In this document: piece by piece, positions 12,843 through 22,179 of the stretch
Layout: each line of letters starts with the position of its first letter
How positions within the stretch are numbered: the stretch's first letter is position 1
Virus record (IMG/VR): IMGVR_UViG_3300022864_000005
Span: 1 to 51,268 of that record
DNA from: a virus
Length of the DNA: 51,268 bases
Direction: 5' to 3' (one strand)
Position numbers and translations under genes: made by a program
The notes under the pieces: generated by a model
The model's database searches: none
Seen by the model: the letters and a program-made list of their open reading frames with translations, nothing else
Told to the model about the DNA's origin: nothing

Positions 12843-13769
12843 TTAAGCGTTCACGGCGGCCTGATACTCAACCGCATCACCCTCTAATTTCCCGGCGATC
12901 TTCCTGAGCGTTTTCGACAAGGCAATCATTTTCTTGTCGCAGCCCTTATCGGCATCCAACAGTCGCTTGCTATGACCGTTTCCATTGGGTGAGCTGTCAT
13001 AATCATTGGCAACATTCATCAGCTTCCCAAAGATACCCTTAGTGTTCTTGAGCGTCCAGGGTTTCCCGTTATACTCGCAGATTACGTGCTTGTTCTCTGC
13101 TTCCACTTCCTTTTTCTGCTCTTTTATGAGCTTCCCCAGCCTGTTATTTCTCGACTGAAAAACCTCATTCCGGTAAGCATTCACGACCGCGATCTGCTTG
13201 TTGGCGTTCCCGCCAGCGTCAAGGGCTTTCCCGGCGGCCTTGATAGGATCAACCCCGTCAGTGGTAAAACACTCGGCAATATGCCGGGCTACCATCTTGG
13301 AGATTTCCCCGTCATTGACCAATTTCTTGACCATGCCAGGCAGTTCCGTGATCGGCAGATCAGACTGTAAGGATTTCACGGATTTTCCCAGCTTGCTCGC
13401 AACGTACCCGACAGAGGCGCCAGCGTCTATACATCTGGACGCCAGGGTAATTTCTTCCATCGGCTTCATGGGCAAACCCAGATTGCTCGAAAGAGCGTCA
13501 AGGTTCCTGTCCACGTCGTTCCGGTATCCAACCACAAAACATGGAATTTCTGGGATACCAGCCCTTACCGCAGCCGGAAACCGATGATTTCCCTTGACGA
13601 CTTTAAACATACCGTCTTCCTGAGCCTCAACCGTTATAGCCTCATCAGGTTTAAAACCTTCAGATTTCATGCTGATTGTAAGCGACTCAATATGGGCCTC
13701 ATCAGTGTTTTCCCGTGGTTGATACGTAGGATCTACCGTGATTTTCCCGGTCTCTATTATCTGTAACAT
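12843..13769 (-). CDS. ParB-like protein
   Basis: 308 residues from ATG 13769 with a purine-rich SD; the longer frame to 13886 has none. The N-terminal ParB/sulfiredoxin-fold domain shows DPTYQPREN, then VVKGNHRFPAAVRAGIPEIPC with the conserved GxHR box. A helix-turn-helix-like region follows (YVASKLGKSVKSLQSDL), then a basic C-terminus. Such phage ParB proteins bind DNA for partition or act as regulators or nucleases; no ParA is visible. First large gene of the leftward operon. Confidence 0.8.
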   Translation of the reverse strand: MLQIIETGKITVDPTYQPRENTDEAHIESLTISMKSEGFKPDEAITVEAQEDGMFKVVKGNHRFPAAVRAGIPEIPCFVVGYRNDVDRNLDALSSNLGLPMKPMEEITLASRCIDAGASVGYVASKLGKSVKSLQSDLPITELPGMVKKLVNDGEISKMVARHIAECFTTDGVDPIKAAGKALDAGGNANKQIAVVNAYRNEVFQSRNNRLGKLIKEQKKEVEAENKHVICEYNGKPWTLKNTKGIFGKLMNVANDYDSSPNGNGHSKRLLDADKGCDKKMIALSKTLRKIAGKLEGDAVEYQAAVNA

Positions 13770-13890
13770 ATTCCGTCCCTCCCTTTGCGTTTTGGGAGCT
13801 ACGAAAGGAATTGCAGATTTCCCGCAACCCCCAGGTTTTCCCGCTATTGTAAGCAGGGTGAAAGGCAAGGAAAGGTAAAGTAGCAAAAGC

Positions 13891-15191: not shown

Positions 15192-15208
15192 ATCATCACC
15201 CCCACACA

Positions 15209-15390
15209 ATCGACAATGTAATTGTCGATATCAAGATTGTCGATAATGAAATAATGCACAATGTTAATATCGACATTGCTATAATCGACATTGTTAATAT
15301 CGACAATCGCACAATGCACAATAACATTATGTATATTAGTATGATAGCATTACACACAATAGTATTGTCGATATTAAGATTGTCGACAAT
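15209..15390. promoter_or_regulatory. Array of eight ATTGTCGAT boxes (operators or iterons)
   Basis: Nine-bp boxes ATTGTCGAT or the reverse complement (one-base variants) start at 15209, 15221, 15236, 15269, 15284, 15299, 15364 and 15379. Starts are 15 bp apart within the groups 221-236, 269-284-299 and 364-379; the first two form the palindrome ATCGACAATgtaATTGTCGAT. Two AATGCACAAT repeats lie between groups. Position between divergent transcripts suggests operators of the lytic/lysogenic switch; the 15-bp direct phasing also fits replication iterons. Confidence 0.8.
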
Positions 15391-15526
15391 ATCAAGACGG
15401 ACGGAAAGTCAAAAGACAAGACTCTCTTGTCTCTCTCTTTTGTCTCTCTCTTTTGTCCTCTCAATTCATATAGTCTTGAAAGTCTCTTTTGAGTCAATTT
15501 ATTTTTATAATAATGAAAAAAAAGGC

Positions 15527-15555
15527 TTGACAGGTATTAAATAAGATGTTATCTT
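15527..15555 (+). promoter_or_regulatory. Sigma70-type promoter
   Basis: TTGACA (15527-15532), 17-bp spacer, TATCTT (15550-15555); predicted start near 15562. It drives the structured leader and the small gene at 15696. Confidence 0.6.
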
Positions 15556-15559
15556 TCTA

Positions 15560-15682
15560 TTGACACGGAGAGATAAATTGAAAAACCGGACAACAAAAAA
15601 CCAAAGTCTTGACTTGAGAAGACGGGAAAGAGTCTCCGGACTCCTCTCCGTGTCAACGTCTCTTGAGTCAAGACTTTTTTTT
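15560..15682 (+). promoter_or_regulatory. Leader with terminator hairpin and possible pseudoknot
   Basis: A stem of about 20 bp (15603-15624 with 15657-15677, a few mismatches) is followed by eight T and the SD GAGAGGAG. Inside is GAGTCtccgGACTC. The 5' end of the RNA (TTGACACGGAGAG, 15560-15572) is perfectly complementary to 15644-15656, which abuts the 3' arm of the terminator. The two pairings cross, forming an H-type pseudoknot or a switch. CTCCTCTC at 15641-15648 also complements the SD. Confidence 0.6.
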
Positions 15683-15695
15683 GAGAGGAGAAGCT

Positions 15696-15818
15696 ATGAC
15701 AATCCAAGAATTTGTAAAATTGACAGGGTTGAAAATTCGTAAGCCGATTAATAAAACAGAGTTTCAGTTTCCGGAGGTGGTTATTGAAAAAGGAAAAAAA
15801 GAGGTGGTTATTAAATAG
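15696..15818 (+). CDS. Small protein behind structured leader
   Basis: 40 residues, SD GAGAGGAG. TIQEFVKLTGLKIRKPI resembles the start of a helix-turn-helix; the C-terminus is short beta-like (FPEVVIEKGKKEVVIK). Codon use here is ordinary compared with the surrounding GAC-rich DNA. Function unknown. Confidence 0.5.
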   Translation: MTIQEFVKLTGLKIRKPINKTEFQFPEVVIEKGKKEVVIK

Positions 15819-15952
15819 GACGGAGACGGAGAAAGAGACGGACGAATAAATAAGATACATCATTATAAAGAGAGGAGAGGAGTCAAGACGGACGGAGAGT
15901 CCATCACGGACACGGAGACACGGACGAATAAGACACGGAGAGGAGAAAAATA

Positions 15953-17230
15953 ATGGAACTATCTCAAGAGACGTACGAAAAAGCAATCGGAGAAGTCTCG
16001 GACTCAATAGGTTACACGGAGAGACTTTCAAGCCCTGTAATCTCTTTAATCGAGAGGAGTAGGGACGGAGAGGACGGACTACCGGCCACAAAAGAGGACT
16101 TGAGACGTTATCTTTTAGCCTGTAAAAGACACGACAACGTCCGAGTCCATCAAACAAGAGAGGAGTCTTTATACAATAAGGACGGAGAGGAGAGACAAAT
16201 TGACTCTCTCCGAGAGACGGAGTCCGGAGAGTCAAAATACTATTTTGAGAAGTTTATAAAAAGTCTCTTTCTCAAGAAAGACAAGTTTTTATGTTCGGCT
16301 TATTTTGTCTCCGGACTTTCAACCCATAAAATTTTAAGACTCGGACTTATGAAAGAAAGTCAAAAGACTATTTATCGGAGACTTCGTTTTATAGCAGATG
16401 AATATGGACGTTTTCTCTCGGAGAGAGGGCTTGAGACAAAAGACTTGAGACAAGATGGACTTTGGACGGATGTTGTGGACTCCGGACGGACGTATTTTAG
16501 ACACAGAGACGGAGAGGACTTGTCTCCAAATATCAATCCTCTCAAGAGATATAGGCGGACAAAAGAGGAGAAAGACTTGATAAAGTTTAGAGAGGAGTCA
16601 AGACTTTCAAGAGAGAGACACCTAAAAAAGATGGACACGGACGGACACGGAGTCTCTTGTCCTCTCGGAGAGGACGGACGGAGAGACTTGAAAGAGATAG
16701 AGAAAGTCAAGAGTCCAGAGACTTCTCTCTTTACAAAGTCCGGACGTTGTTTAATCCCTCTCGGAAAGACGGAGAAAGAGGACGGAAAGAAAGCAAAAGA
16801 GTCTCTTTCCGATATACGAAGACTTCAAAGTCTTGAGTCCGCATACTTAGGAAAGAGAACGGACTCTTGTCTTGATATGGACAAGTCTCTCTCTGGAGTC
16901 CGGATATACGAGACGTTCATTACTCCAGAGAAAGAGAGGACGTTTACCGGTTTCAAGAAAGACAAGACTCCGTTTAAAGTCCATACAGGTATAGTCTCTC
17001 CAGAGACTATTGAAACTGCTCCTCTCGGAAAGACGGACGGACTCAAGAGACAAAGACAATATCTCGCTATCAAGTCTCAAGAGAAAGAGGAGAAAGACGG
17101 AGAGGACACGGACACGGAGAAAGTCAAGAGGACGGACGGAAAGACACGGACACGAAAGACTCGGACGGACTCCGGACGGACTACCATCTTGAGAAAGAGA
17201 AGAGAGTCACTAATCCATGTAACCATGTAA
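15953..17230 (+). CDS. 425-aa basic protein with extreme codon bias; possible DNA-binding initiator or regulator
   Basis: SD GGAGAGGAG precedes ATG 15953. Composition is dominated by R, K, E, D, S, T, L and G. Residues about 120-150 (LSTHKILRLGLMKESQKTIY then RRLRFIADEYGRFL) look like a helix-turn-helix; the C-terminal 70 residues are low-complexity and strongly basic (TRTRKTRTDSGRT). Asp is almost always GAC and Gly almost always GGA, unlike all neighbours. By position (first large rightward gene after the box array) it could be a replication initiator carrying its origin inside the gene, or an activator. No family recognised. Confidence 0.6.
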   Translation: MELSQETYEKAIGEVSDSIGYTERLSSPVISLIERSRDGEDGLPATKEDLRRYLLACKRHDNVRVHQTREESLYNKDGEERQIDSLRETESGESKYYFEKFIKSLFLKKDKFLCSAYFVSGLSTHKILRLGLMKESQKTIYRRLRFIADEYGRFLSERGLETKDLRQDGLWTDVVDSGRTYFRHRDGEDLSPNINPLKRYRRTKEEKDLIKFREESRLSRERHLKKMDTDGHGVSCPLGEDGRRDLKEIEKVKSPETSLFTKSGRCLIPLGKTEKEDGKKAKESLSDIRRLQSLESAYLGKRTDSCLDMDKSLSGVRIYETFITPEKERTFTGFKKDKTPFKVHTGIVSPETIETAPLGKTDGLKRQRQYLAIKSQEKEEKDGEDTDTEKVKRTDGKTRTRKTRTDSGRTTILRKRRESLIHVTM

Positions 17231-17246
17231 CCATCTAACCATCTAA
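17215..17246 (+). repeat. 8-bp tandem repeat, four units
   Basis: CCATGTAA twice, then CCATCTAA twice, spanning the stop codon of the 425-aa gene. Probably slipped-strand expansion. Confidence 0.8.
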
Positions 17247-17251
17247 TCAAG

Positions 17252-17285
17252 AGGACTCTTGTCAAAAGACTTGAGTCCTTTTGCT
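17252..17285 (+). terminator. Intrinsic terminator after the 425-aa gene
   Basis: AGGACTC (17252-17258) pairs with GAGTCCT (17273-17279) and runs into TTTTGCTTT. It closes the transcript that starts at 15562. Confidence 0.65.
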
Positions 17286-17518
17286 TTATACTCTCTAATC
17301 TCTTGAGAGACACGGAGAGAGACACGAATAAGAAAGAGAGAGGAAAGGACGGAGACTCGGACGGACAAGACGGACGTGGTGGACTCGGAGACTCGGACTC
17401 CTGGACTCCTGGACTCGGACGAAAGAGAGAGGAGAGGACGGACTCAAGTCAAGAGTCAAGACAAGACACGGAGTCAAGAGAGGAGAGAGGACAAGAGGAG
17501 AGGAGAGACTATCACCAG

Positions 17519-17568
17519 GCTTGGGATATACGCTTGGGATATACATGGGATATACGCTTGGGATATAC
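17519..17568 (+). repeat. 13-bp tandem repeat
   Basis: GCTTGGGATATAC occurs at 17519, 17532 and 17556, with an 11-bp shortened unit (ATGGGATATAC) at 17545. It marks the right edge of the GAC-rich island. Confidence 0.85.
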
Positions 17569-17595
17569 AAATAATTGGTGAGTCGCCATATCATA

Positions 17596-17660: not shown

Positions 17661-17839
17661 GACCTACACTTAATACCCTATTAAGTATAGGTTTGGATTA
17701 TATGTAATGATTACAAGTACTCATGCCATACCCGCCCCTACTTCTATCCCAATACCCGCCCGTCTTCTGTGGGTGGCTGGTAACTGTTCATGGATTATTT
17801 ACCAATTTTTCAAACCTAAGTCCAAGCCGAAAATCGTTC

Positions 17840-18135: not shown

Positions 18136-18672
18136 ATGGACCCATTACGATTTAATCAATTATACCCTACGATTGGGATGGATAAGAACGATCGGACACT
18201 ACTTCGGTGGGATCCTGTTACTCAATGTAGTGGAGATTGTGTTCTTTATGAAGAATGTCCGTACCAGAAGAAAGGTCGGTGTAGTTTAGAGCAGACATAT
18301 ATGAACACGATTTACCGGAATTTAATTCACCCTGATTCGGCGAAGGGGATATCCGAGCAGTTCAGCGATTTTGAGCTTCAGCGGGTGGGGTTACATTTAA
18401 TGCCATTATACCAGCAGTTAATTCGATTTAAGAAGATTGCATTCGCTGTTGAGCAGATTGTGATAAGCGATAAAAAGGGGAGCGTTAAGATTCATCCGAT
18501 TTTTGCTGAGATCCGGACTGTAATCCGAGAGATTGAGAGAGTTATGGGGGCGTTAAAAATTGAAGAAAAATGGAAGAAAAAGTTTGGATCTGCTATAGGA
18601 ATAACTGATGTGAGCCTTGAAGAATTATTTGAAAAAGGAATTCCAGGGTCATATGAGGAAATTGCAAAATAA
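18136..18672 (+). CDS. Putative terminase small subunit
   Basis: 178 residues, SD AGAGGAG. The N-terminus has a four-Cys cluster (QCSGDCVLYEECPYQKKGRC), likely zinc-binding. The C-terminal half (HPIFAEIRTVIREIERVMGA) resembles the P27-type small terminase C-terminus, in which a helical segment precedes a conserved tail. Position just before terminase large, portal and capsid genes agrees. The family recognises phage DNA ends for packaging. Separated from the large subunit by two genes and its own promoter. Confidence 0.55.
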   Translation: MDPLRFNQLYPTIGMDKNDRTLLRWDPVTQCSGDCVLYEECPYQKKGRCSLEQTYMNTIYRNLIHPDSAKGISEQFSDFELQRVGLHLMPLYQQLIRFKKIAFAVEQIVISDKKGSVKIHPIFAEIRTVIREIERVMGALKIEEKWKKKFGSAIGITDVSLEELFEKGIPGSYEEIAK

Positions 18673-18846: not shown

Positions 18847-19752
18847 ATGGAAGAAGAATGGTTATCGTGGCCTACAAACCCTGATTATGCTGTTTCAAAT
18901 TATGGAGAGGTGAAAAGGATTGTTCCATATAAAACATTTACGGGTGGTGCTATTTTAGGAAGAGTTTTAACTCCATACGTTTTACCTGAAAGGAAAGGTT
19001 TTTCCGTAGCCGTGTTCATATTGGATCGACAAACTCGACGACAAGTTGCAGGTATGGTTTTAGAAACTTTCATCGGACCATCTCCCAGGCAAGGTAAAGA
19101 GATTGTTTGGGAAGATGGAAATCCTTACAATAATCGATCGGATAACTTAGAATGGAAGCCTTTATATCCAGAACCAATTAAGGTTGATTTTTTAGAAATT
19201 GCTTTGCCAGGCGAAAAATGGAAAAGGTGGCCTGGAGAATCTTATTCTCCTTATTTTGCATCAACATTAGGAAGGGTAGCTATTCTTTTTAAAAATAATT
19301 TAAGGATAGCGAATGGGGGATGGAAAAGTAAGGATAATTGTCACCCACATAAAATTTTAAAAATAAAAAACAAGAAACAGATGAGGCAATTAACCGTTGG
19401 AAAATTTGTTTTAGAAACCTTTAAAAAATGTCCAGGAGAAGATTACTGGCTATATCGAAGGGATGGTGATGCGAGAAACGATAAATTGTCAAATTTAGTG
19501 TGGGGATTAAGGCCAAGTGGAATGTTAGGAGTAAGCGCAGAATTAAAACAAGTTAAAAGGTGGTTAGGGTTGGCAGGTGGTCATATAGCGAAAATTAATG
19601 CTATGATAAATAATGCTCCAAAAGTTAAACAACTTGCAGATAAATTAAAGGTATCTCAAAAAAAGGCAAAAGAATTTTTAGACCAGCATCAAACATTAAT
19701 GCAATCTGTTGAAAAAATTAAAAAGGAGATAGATTATGCAAAATACAATTAA
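18847..19752 (+). CDS. NUMOD4/HNH-derived protein, catalytic His apparently lost
   Basis: 301 residues, SD GGGAGGATG. Two tandem units, each with a NUMOD4-like start (WPTNPDYAVSNYGEVKR; WPGESYSPYFASTLGRVA) and an HNH-like end (WEDGNPYNNRSDNLEW near 88-103; RDGDARNDKLSNLVW near 204-218). In active HNH nucleases the residue before the DGN box is usually part of a His pair; here the positions hold Trp/Glu and Arg/Arg. The C-terminus is a probable coiled coil (about 240-300). It may be a decayed homing nuclease kept as a DNA-binding protein, or a packaging accessory. It overlaps the next gene by 17 nt. Confidence 0.65.
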   Translation: MEEEWLSWPTNPDYAVSNYGEVKRIVPYKTFTGGAILGRVLTPYVLPERKGFSVAVFILDRQTRRQVAGMVLETFIGPSPRQGKEIVWEDGNPYNNRSDNLEWKPLYPEPIKVDFLEIALPGEKWKRWPGESYSPYFASTLGRVAILFKNNLRIANGGWKSKDNCHPHKILKIKNKKQMRQLTVGKFVLETFKKCPGEDYWLYRRDGDARNDKLSNLVWGLRPSGMLGVSAELKQVKRWLGLAGGHIAKINAMINNAPKVKQLADKLKVSQKKAKEFLDQHQTLMQSVEKIKKEIDYAKYN

Positions 19753-20311
19753 AGAAAGCCTCCAAATGGTGAAAGATTTCAGGACAGCCTCAAATGAGAA
19801 ATTGTTAGAAGTTCATACCCATTTAGTCGTTTTAGAAAGTTCAGGGGTGTGGAAAAAAAAGGTTTACTATGGTGGAGACAAAACTCTGGAGAAGTTTAAA
19901 GACAGTTCATTTTCAACCTTTTTGAAGGAAGTTTTTGCAATAACGATGGTTTGGTATGTGGGAATAAATAAAATTTTAGCTGTAAAAAATGGAAAAGAAT
20001 TGTTCTTAGAGTTTGGCCGGGGAAATATGGTAACTTATATTAATAGTACCGATGAAGAACGTAAGGCTATTGTAACAAAAGCAAGGAGTACCGTGGTTAC
20101 GCGATCCTTTGCGTCTTTACGGTCGGAATTGTATCCGAATACAAAGAAAGAAATAATTGACATTCCCAATTCATGGAAAAATAAATATTTGAAAATCAAA
20201 AAGGATTTTGAGGAGTATAAAGCCCAAACTGAGGAATCGATGAGTGTTTTAAAGAAAACAATTGCTGTGTTATCAAGTGGAGCCGAGGAAGTTATTGCGG
20301 TAAATAATTAA
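19736..20311 (+). CDS. Hypothetical packaging-region protein
   Basis: 191 residues, SD GGAG before ATG 19736. Helical; basic central part (RKAIVTKARSTVVTRSFASL) and a C-terminal coiled-coil-like segment (KYLKIKKDFEEYKAQTEES). One base overlaps the terminase large gene. It could be a DNA-binding terminase accessory or an alternative small subunit; not recognised. Confidence 0.6.
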   Translation: MQNTIKESLQMVKDFRTASNEKLLEVHTHLVVLESSGVWKKKVYYGGDKTLEKFKDSSFSTFLKEVFAITMVWYVGINKILAVKNGKELFLEFGRGNMVTYINSTDEERKAIVTKARSTVVTRSFASLRSELYPNTKKEIIDIPNSWKNKYLKIKKDFEEYKAQTEESMSVLKKTIAVLSSGAEEVIAVNN

Positions 20312-22179
20312 TGAAAACCAAAACCCAAGAATACCGAGATGGTGGTGAAGGGTTTATAAAATGGTGCAATGAAAACGTATGTGTGCCAATTTATCCTGAA
20401 GGATCAGATATCCCAGTGTGGACACTCATGGGTGAACTTCCAGAAGAAAAGAATCCTGAGACTGGGAGATCGTATGCTGATATGTGGCGAATGCAGCAGG
20501 AGATTTGCCTTGAAGCGCTTCAAATGAAAGACGGACGGTTGAAGCATCGACTGATAGTTCTTTGCTGGTCTCGCGGGGACGGCAAGAGTTTGCTGGCTTG
20601 TTTAATTCAACTGTGGAAATTTTGTAATTGGCCAAGGCAGCAAATAATGCTTGGGGCAAATTCTGTTAGCCAAATACGTTTTGTCCACTACGATATAATT
20701 AGGGACCTTATTCTTAATTCACCAAGGTTACTTGCCAGGATCACCCGAAAGAATATTCAAGAAAAAGAAATTCGTTACACAGACGATAAGGGTAATGTTC
20801 GTTCAATTATCCGTGCCATTTCTTCTTTTAGTGGAATTGTGTCAAATATATCTGGTTTTAGTTTCTCTGAGATGTTTGATATGAAAAACCCAAAATTTTA
20901 TGTCCAATTGGATGGTTCCACGAGAAACATTCCCAATGCGTTGGGTGTGATTGATTCCACTGTGTCTGCTAAGTCCCACGTTCTTTACAAGCTCTATGAA
21001 ACTTTCAAGAGGGGTAAGGATCCTTCTTTATATTATTCCTATCGCTGTAGTTCGAAGGGTAAGTTCTCGGATTTCATGAACCCGAATATGACTCAAGTTC
21101 AGCTTGATTCGTATCGGGAAAAATTTCCACTTGGGGAATTTGAGAGATATTTCAAAAATATTTGGTCTGCCGGCGCCGAGCGGGTGTTCACTGATGAGAT
21201 AATTGAGGCGACAAACTTCCTTGGGATTGATCACCAGCTTAATGTTCATCCGGCGCTTATGGAAATCCTCACTGCTAAAAATAAACTTGTTGAGCAGGAG
21301 CAGAAGATTATCCGGCAGGGTAAAGATTCGGAGGAGGAATTTGAGGAGCCCACGGTTGCGCCAATATTGTTTGAGCAGCACAAGGATCGATTTGGAGAGT
21401 GGGATCAGCGGTTATGGCCAGTGAGCGATATTTACACCCTGTCTGATGCTTTCGGGAATTCTGCAATGGCGTCTGTGGAGGACCTCCAGAAGATCGGAGA
21501 TATGTACGATACTGACTGGGCGATTATGGCGGGGATGGATAGGGCGGACCCTATGAAGACCCGGACAGCGGCCAGGACAATCGTGACGGCCATAGCGAAG
21601 GGATTGGCGGGCTCCCGGTCGAATCCGTATCCGGCTGACAATGCGGACGCCCCGCGGTATTTATATTTTCTTCTTCATCTGGTAGACGTTGAGGATCATT
21701 CGATTGAGGTGGTGAAGGATGTCTTGACAGCCATAAAAGATGAGTATAATGGAATTGACGTGTTCGGGACTGAACGCTGGGGAGCGGTGGATACCGTGCA
21801 GTGGTGTGAGGACAATGATATCTTGCCCATAATCTATTATCCGGTATACGCTCGGCAGAGGACTATGTTCACGGAATTATATTTGGCGTACAAGAGTGGC
21901 AGGTTTAAGACCCCGCCTGTTTTAGTCCGAGGGCAAAAGCAGGATGATATTCTCAAAGAAGAGGCGAGTGTGTTTGACCATAATCCCGAGGCGTCAAAGA
22001 GTAAGTTTGGGAGCCCCGAGAAGTCCGAGAAGTACGGAATCCAGGATGATTGCATGTTTTCAGTGGGGTCAGCGGTGTACGCTGGGTTGAATTTAGGCGT
22101 GGACAGTTTCCGGGAGCGGAAGGGTGCTAAGAGTTTTGGGATGTTTTTTAAAGCGGGGGGATTGCTGGGGAAATGGTAG
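20311..22179 (+). CDS. terL: Terminase large subunit
   Basis: 622 residues. The ATPase domain has Walker A WSRGDGKS near 86-93 and a hydrophobic strand before SEMFDM as the likely Walker B region near 188-195; coupling motif region LGVIDSTVS near 214. The C-terminal RNase H-like nuclease begins near AGMDRADP (about 405-412), with acidic residues around DVEDHS and DVFGTER. Cuts concatemeric DNA and pumps it into the prohead. TAATGA coupling with the preceding gene. Confidence 0.92.
   Translation: MKTKTQEYRDGGEGFIKWCNENVCVPIYPEGSDIPVWTLMGELPEEKNPETGRSYADMWRMQQEICLEALQMKDGRLKHRLIVLCWSRGDGKSLLACLIQLWKFCNWPRQQIMLGANSVSQIRFVHYDIIRDLILNSPRLLARITRKNIQEKEIRYTDDKGNVRSIIRAISSFSGIVSNISGFSFSEMFDMKNPKFYVQLDGSTRNIPNALGVIDSTVSAKSHVLYKLYETFKRGKDPSLYYSYRCSSKGKFSDFMNPNMTQVQLDSYREKFPLGEFERYFKNIWSAGAERVFTDEIIEATNFLGIDHQLNVHPALMEILTAKNKLVEQEQKIIRQGKDSEEEFEEPTVAPILFEQHKDRFGEWDQRLWPVSDIYTLSDAFGNSAMASVEDLQKIGDMYDTDWAIMAGMDRADPMKTRTAARTIVTAIAKGLAGSRSNPYPADNADAPRYLYFLLHLVDVEDHSIEVVKDVLTAIKDEYNGIDVFGTERWGAVDTVQWCEDNDILPIIYYPVYARQRTMFTELYLAYKSGRFKTPPVLVRGQKQDDILKEEASVFDHNPEASKSKFGSPEKSEKYGIQDDCMFSVGSAVYAGLNLGVDSFRERKGAKSFGMFFKAGGLLGKW

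Follow-up and report, generated by a model that had tools for sequence, protein, structure and literature searches.

We found a sharply bounded, one-sided ban on a short word that acts at the level of the DNA, differs in its word between related phages and is paid for in protein composition. The window, that is, the whole stretch analysed, is the 51,268-nt IMG/VR virus record IMGVR_UViG_3300022864_000005 of an uncultured phage. Its word-restricted island, located at 15395–17515, sits between two divergent modules: one on the minus strand to the left, with integrase, ligase, AAA, sliding-clamp and ParB-like genes, and one on the plus strand to the right, with terminase, capsid and head-protease genes. 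This island is the window's version of a family feature, a segment of about 1–2 kb to the left of a C-run element from which one dinucleotide is nearly purged on both strands. The dialect is GC-poor in the window phage and in L002, and GG/CC-poor in L022, L023, L026, L044, L073 and, less strictly, L057. Something that reads a dinucleotide in DNA probably selects against it in this segment, and the evidence points to selection on a short DNA motif rather than to codon choice, methylation sites or repeat duplication.

Word usage in the window's island

The clearest single rule of the island, overlooked by the first-pass annotation, is the near-absence of the GC dinucleotide (rho 0.16, against 0.97 in the background). 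The depletion extends from about 15348 to about 17575 and is found on both strands, in coding and non-coding DNA, beyond what composition predicts; the G+C content of the island (0.44) is the same as that of the genome. Only 2 GC were observed in 666 nt of non-coding island DNA, and 12 in the 1278-nt P0001 gene, where 9 of the 12 form the start of an alanine codon, so that leftover motifs stand mostly where another constraint forces them. Alanine makes up 2.1% of P0001, compared with 8.2% of the window's other proteins. The leftover GC together with the lowered alanine have the look of a DNA-level ban competing with protein needs.

The first-pass annotation had described a 2-kb island dominated by GAC, GTC, GAG, CTC and GGA, and counts against the rest of the window showed the bias to be real and stronger than first described. 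GAC/GTC, GAG/CTC and AGA/TCT are 3.3–3.7 times as frequent as in the background (162, 198 and 220 observed, with 44, 52 and 66 expected); GGA/TCC (143 versus 77), GACTC/GAGTC (38 versus 1.2) and GACGGA (30 versus 0.6) are also enriched. GGG, CAG and GGT are scarce in addition, and CCC, CGC and GCC are avoided. The nine GAC reported for 17341–17400 and the seven for 16441–16500 were exact on recount; outside the island, GAC and GTC together reach a maximum of 6 per 60-nt stretch. A purine precedes 86% of GAC when both strands are read (A 70, G 70, T 21, C 1). The bias is independent of the reading frame (27, 24 and 20 GAC and 13, 16 and 12 CTC in the three codon phases of the gene) and is shared by non-coding DNA, with 87 GAC/GTC per kb compared with 77 per kb in coding DNA. 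Codon shuffling of the gene gave z = 10 to 12 with the codon usage of the genome and 4.8 to 5.9 with the gene's own usage. As the earlier reading had argued, a protein-level cause cannot explain a bias whose words are shared by coding and non-coding DNA; therefore the cause acts on the DNA. The GC ban alone underpredicts the enrichment of GAC, GAG and AGA, and about 88 of the 256 four-letter words need a penalty to cut the divergence from 0.91 to 0.37 bits in this island.

The suggestion that the island is a methylation-dense GANTC region did not hold: the 38 sites are 19 GACTC and 19 GAGTC, with GAATC and GATTC both at zero, and GANTC methylation sites were rejected because not all forms of the motif are enriched. 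Avoidance of restriction sites was likewise set aside, as four-letter palindromes are only mildly low, at about the level that dinucleotides predict. Searches against Rfam gave matches at chance level only.

Immediately to the left of the island, at 15205–15394, repeat search and dinucleotide counts revealed a patch without GG or CC in which TCGACAAT/ATTGTCGA repeats run in both directions; located near the ParB-like gene, they could represent iterons or operators. Within the island, a long hairpin followed by a U-run is written in island words on the plus strand at 15603–15683 (−36.7 kcal/mol, z −4.3); it is terminator-like in shape only, since word-poor DNA gives some complementarity anyway. 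At 15559–15683, TTGACACGGAGAG is complementary to CTCTCCGTGTCAA and AAGTCTTGACTTGAGAAGACG to CGTCTCTTGAGTCAAGACTT, the two pairs crossing each other ahead of the U-run; an attenuator is possible, and chance pairing is likely in such word-poor DNA. A small plus-strand ORF of 40 amino acids (15696–15818) is preceded by the Shine-Dalgarno-like GAGAGGAG and has no database match. The plus-strand P0001 gene (15953–17230) encodes a 425-residue orphan protein and is followed by a terminator hairpin at 17248–17283 on the same strand (−20.7 kcal/mol, z −5.8), which the alignment showed to be conserved in L002, where the copy has z −4.3. The non-coding DNA past the terminator (17285–17515) still uses island words and differs in length in L002, and a 24-nt direct repeat, TGGGATATACGCTTGGGATATACA, was found by repeat search in two copies at 17522–17569.

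Homologs of P0001 were found neither in Pfam, PHROGs and the PDB nor among phage records, and among viral contigs only in L002; none was located outside such an island. The AlphaFold models of P0001 (pLDDT 37) and of the protein shared by L022 and L023 (pLDDT 43) were too poor for a fold search. L002 is the nearest relative that reaches the island region and the sole phage that shares the window's island: when the same island was sought in related phages, as had been proposed, L002 was found to carry the end of the P0001 gene in the same GC-poor dialect. Synonymous sites appear constrained in the island, where synonymous change between the two phages is 11.5%, as against 26% for the terminase and 45% for a neighbouring gene, a comparison over 61 codons only. 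Several of the differences, read from the alignment, exchange one island word for another, such as GAC for GAG.

GG/CC-poor segments and the C-run element in related phages

To gather relatives, the gene of the terminase large subunit (20311–22179, plus strand; PHROG match with E 3e-10) was used as bait, and 61 contigs with a related terminase were fetched. Further contigs were obtained through the conserved plus-strand gene upstream of it (18136–18672), which is labelled small-terminase-like by position and has no family match; left-arm genes used as bait returned no relatives. The stretch at 19736–20311, flanked by an HNH nuclease gene and the terminase gene, weakly resembles the MunI restriction enzyme family (E 0.003, under the cut-off). 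L042, L043 and L044, contigs of about 87.8 kb from three metagenomes, are identical over all shared bases and cut differently; they are probably a single circular assembly and were counted as one. One terminase relative (L063, 1–6679) lies on a contig binned as Candidatus Desantisbacteria, which may be a host hint or a binning error.

Islands in relatives were located by inspecting the DNA upstream of the small-terminase-like gene, where many relatives carry odd word-rich DNA, each different. In L023, no GG/CC was observed on either strand over 1056 nt, where 104 were expected, and L022 has 2 in 1390 nt, with 108 expected. The corresponding counts are 6 versus 119 in L073, 9 versus 164 in L044 and 17 versus 150 in L026, and the depletion is weaker in L057 (16 versus 105) and L046 (10 versus 71). 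The GG/CC-poor segments of the five most depleted phages are 0.9–1.8 kb long, and they are the only stretches with GG/CC at or below 15% of the expectation from local composition in about 810 kb of related loci. No comparable local composition was found at the right ends of lambda, phiC31, D3, 2972 and FCL-2. A model with a fixed-weight GG/CC ban fits well only L022 and L023, the other islands keeping some sites, and L044 and L073 also lack GAT/ATC and GAG/CTC. As L022 and L023 encode homologous island proteins (54% identity), and L044 and L073 do so as well (40% identity), the five islands represent about three independent lineages. When coding and non-coding DNA from a single phage were compared, four-letter word usage correlated at r 0.66; between phages the value was 0.37. 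Blocks of high simplicity in L058 (3351–4600) and L026 (1–750 and 1951–2700) were set aside, since the reading frames there resemble those of repeat proteins. Several AT-rich relatives contain CG-poor windows, which were left uncounted because they reflect a general scarcity of CpG.

The proteins encoded in the GG/CC islands are small and contain almost no glycine, proline or tryptophan. These are proteins of 97–168 amino acids in L022 (830–1273 and 245–538), L023 (6892–7383), L057 (309–617 and 825–1331), L044 (6056–6526) and L073 (9215–9658). The three residues together number 0, 0, 1, 1 and 2 in the main island proteins of L022, L023, L044, L073 and L057, respectively (147–168 amino acids). 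The Shine-Dalgarno sequences of L022 and L023 are also free of GG, for example AAAGTGAG. The first-pass annotation had named a homologous gene free of the bias as the informative comparison, and for the GG/CC islands such a gene was found: the L099 homolog of the L022 protein (44% identity) lies in DNA with normal GG/CC and uses glycine, proline and tryptophan. In these islands the bias thus belongs to the DNA segment, and the two 40%-identical homologs of L044 and L073 are themselves written in partly different words. The ban in both coding and non-coding DNA, the L099 homolog and the low synonymous divergence from L002 support DNA-level selection against a short motif.

On the right, the relatives' islands are bordered by a conserved C-run element, located in the window at 17727–17815 on the plus strand. 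Its consensus, ACCCCCCTCnATTTATCT ... CGGGGTACTnACCATAATnTTTTTCC, was recognised in 17 phages through alignment, and the L026 copy was picked out by eye, although the flanking DNA is unrelated among phages; the window's copy reads CCCGCCC. In most such phages the island abuts the element, and in L026 the two are about 500 nt apart. For the five phages pooled, the observed/expected ratio of GG/CC is about 1.1 at distances of more than 1250 nt left of the element, 0.01–0.24 in the last 1000 nt before it and 1.23 immediately to its right. The small-terminase-like gene of L026 lies some 3 kb further right than the element, which indicates that the islands go with the element and not with the gene. 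In the majority of relatives that carry the element, L068 among them, there is no GG/CC island. Tandem repeats with a sequence unique to each phage were observed near the element in L006 (121–330), L010 (480–600), L057 (1500–1680) and L046 (1080–1150). Judged by its position and sequence, the C-run element may be cos, and we regard it as a candidate cos or packaging site.

Alternative explanations of the restricted words

Enrichment of binding sites, also raised in the first-pass annotation, is the alternative that survives best, and we consider it unlikely though worth serious weight. Here a protein, such as P0001, the ParB-like protein (12843–13886) or a replication or packaging protein, would coat its own locus, as at an origin inside an initiator gene. 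Consistent with this, GAC, GAG and AGA exceed what a GC ban predicts, the adjoining TCGACAAT array resembles iterons, a ParB-domain protein is encoded nearby, and the words differ by phage while agreeing between coding and non-coding DNA within one. The GC-skew minimum near 15.5 kb would fit as well, and is confounded by the switch of gene direction there. The idea was weakened by the absence of helical phasing in the spacing of GAC/GTC, by repeated 8–12-mers that are no commoner than under a fourth-order word model, with no repeats beyond 5-nt words, and by the lack of any island motif longer than about 6 nt. Nor does enrichment of sites explain why the rule in relatives is a ban, with GG/CC near zero. 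The island resembles a lambda O type origin in that repeated sequence lies within a gene and next to it, and divergent modules flank the gene. It differs from one in that no regularly spaced repeated binding sites were found within the P0001 gene (no iterons, helical phase or long repeats), in that P0001 has no initiator homology in Pfam, PHROGs, the PDB or phage records, and in that the family-wide feature is a dinucleotide ban, not repeated sites.

Neutral turnover, in which short direct and inverted repeats homogenise a region by slippage or template switching, appears improbable. Several short dialect patches do lie side by side, tandem copies are present locally at 17376–17420, a 21-nt insertion in L002 is another such copy, and tandem repeats surround the C-run element in many relatives (L006, L010 and L057), and the over-use of a few short words in coding and non-coding DNA is what is known as cryptic simplicity. 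Against this, direct and inverted repeats, near or long, were not in excess over the fourth-order model, a weak test as the model was trained on 2.1 kb, and no repeat excess was seen beyond 5-nt words. Synonymous divergence in the island is lower, not higher, and duplication would not be expected to leave a ban as strict as 0 GG/CC in 1056 nt.

The position of the islands, directly before the C-run element and on one side only, would also fit an avoidance of packaging decoys. If the terminase recognises C-runs, the DNA packaged just before the terminal cos would have to be free of look-alikes. CTC and ATC, which occur in the consensus element CCCCCCTCnATTTATCT, are likewise missing from the islands of L044 and L073, and the window avoids CCC, CGC and GCC, with CCCGCCC as its own element. 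However, the ban is missing in most relatives with the same element, and purging every CC pair goes beyond the avoidance of a six-C run, so we give this account only a small chance.

A sequence-specific mutator, such as a cytosine deaminase with a CC or GC context acting on often single-stranded DNA, could erode a motif, and a context-dependent enzyme could yield one lost dinucleotide. The GG/CC islands are indeed AT-rich (25–36% G+C, compared with about 43%). The window's island, by contrast, keeps the G+C content of its genome and shows no rise in GT/AC, which GC deamination should produce. In the GG/CC islands GC is raised (rho 1.5–2.4) and TC/GA mostly is not, while reading frames and terminators persist. 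A mutational process also sits poorly with a synonymous divergence in the island that is below that of neighbouring genes, not above, and all these make a mutator very unlikely.

A protein- or codon-level cause, in which a repetitive or biased amino-acid sequence such as that of P0001, rich in K, R, E, D, S and T, dictates the words, is contradicted by non-coding DNA that obeys the same or a stronger rule, by effects in all codon phases with synonymous controls at z 4.8 to 12, by the L099 homolog in normal DNA and by the partly different words of the two 40%-identity homologs.

A possible defence motif at the first-entering genome end

Selection against a motif recognised by host defence is the explanation that we prefer. 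If the C-run element is cos, the island would form the terminus of the packaged genome that leads on injection. A host factor able to recognise a motif of 2–3 bases in double-stranded DNA would hit early-entering DNA hardest and would purge the motif there. A CRISPR PAM (NGG or CC for the GG/CC islands) would be the natural candidate for what is read, and different hosts would impose different motifs and hence different dialects. A reader of 2–3 bp that acts only at the terminus fits a defence nuclease or the CRISPR adaptation machinery. Spacers are reportedly acquired from the first-injected free end of phage DNA, a host process in type II-A systems. We propose the full mechanism, in which a defence-recognised, PAM-like motif is purged from the first-injected genome end, tentatively and as somewhat short of an even chance. 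Several points count against it: the rest of the genome would stay targetable, as the motif-free DNA spans only 1–2 kb; the island borders resemble those of a gene module and not a gradient with distance from the end; and GC matches no PAM that we know of.

Motif avoidance is known in phages as a weak statistical bias spread over the whole genome, and the first-step-transfer DNA of phage T5 is not known to contain EcoRI sites. The depletion of PAMs in phages of CRISPR-bearing hosts (Kupczok and Bollback 2014, PMC4246573) is alike in that a short motif is under-represented, which was attributed there to selection and not mutation. That depletion is partial and genome-wide, with known hosts and PAMs, whereas the one described here is near-absolute and confined to 1–2 kb. 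The first-entering part of T5 DNA is likewise special toward host nucleases (PMC8092258); in T5 this concerns complete restriction sites and an established injection in two steps, and here a dinucleotide and an order of injection that we infer. Free ends of phage DNA are a preferred source of spacers (PMC10415147), and PMC8092290, citing Modell 2017, describes the targeting of whichever end is injected first. First-end spacer acquisition (Modell 2017, cited in PMC10415147 and PMC8092290) would supply selection at one end only; it is a host process shown in type II-A systems, and its action on the phages studied here would be hypothetical.

In its broadest form, the claim is that phages carry 1–2 kb with a dinucleotide forbidden on both strands at the first-entering end, with proteins rewritten without glycine, proline or alanine, and that the word varies by lineage and records a host-defence motif; taken as a whole, we consider this possible but doubtful. 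A local, near-absolute ban that removes glycine, proline and tryptophan would directly mark what attacks phage DNA and at which place. Should the banned dinucleotide be a host-defence motif, that motif could be deduced for phages not in culture, and segment length would tell which part of an entering genome is exposed. Irrespective of the agent, protein composition can be overridden, within sharp bounds, by a rule that acts on the DNA.
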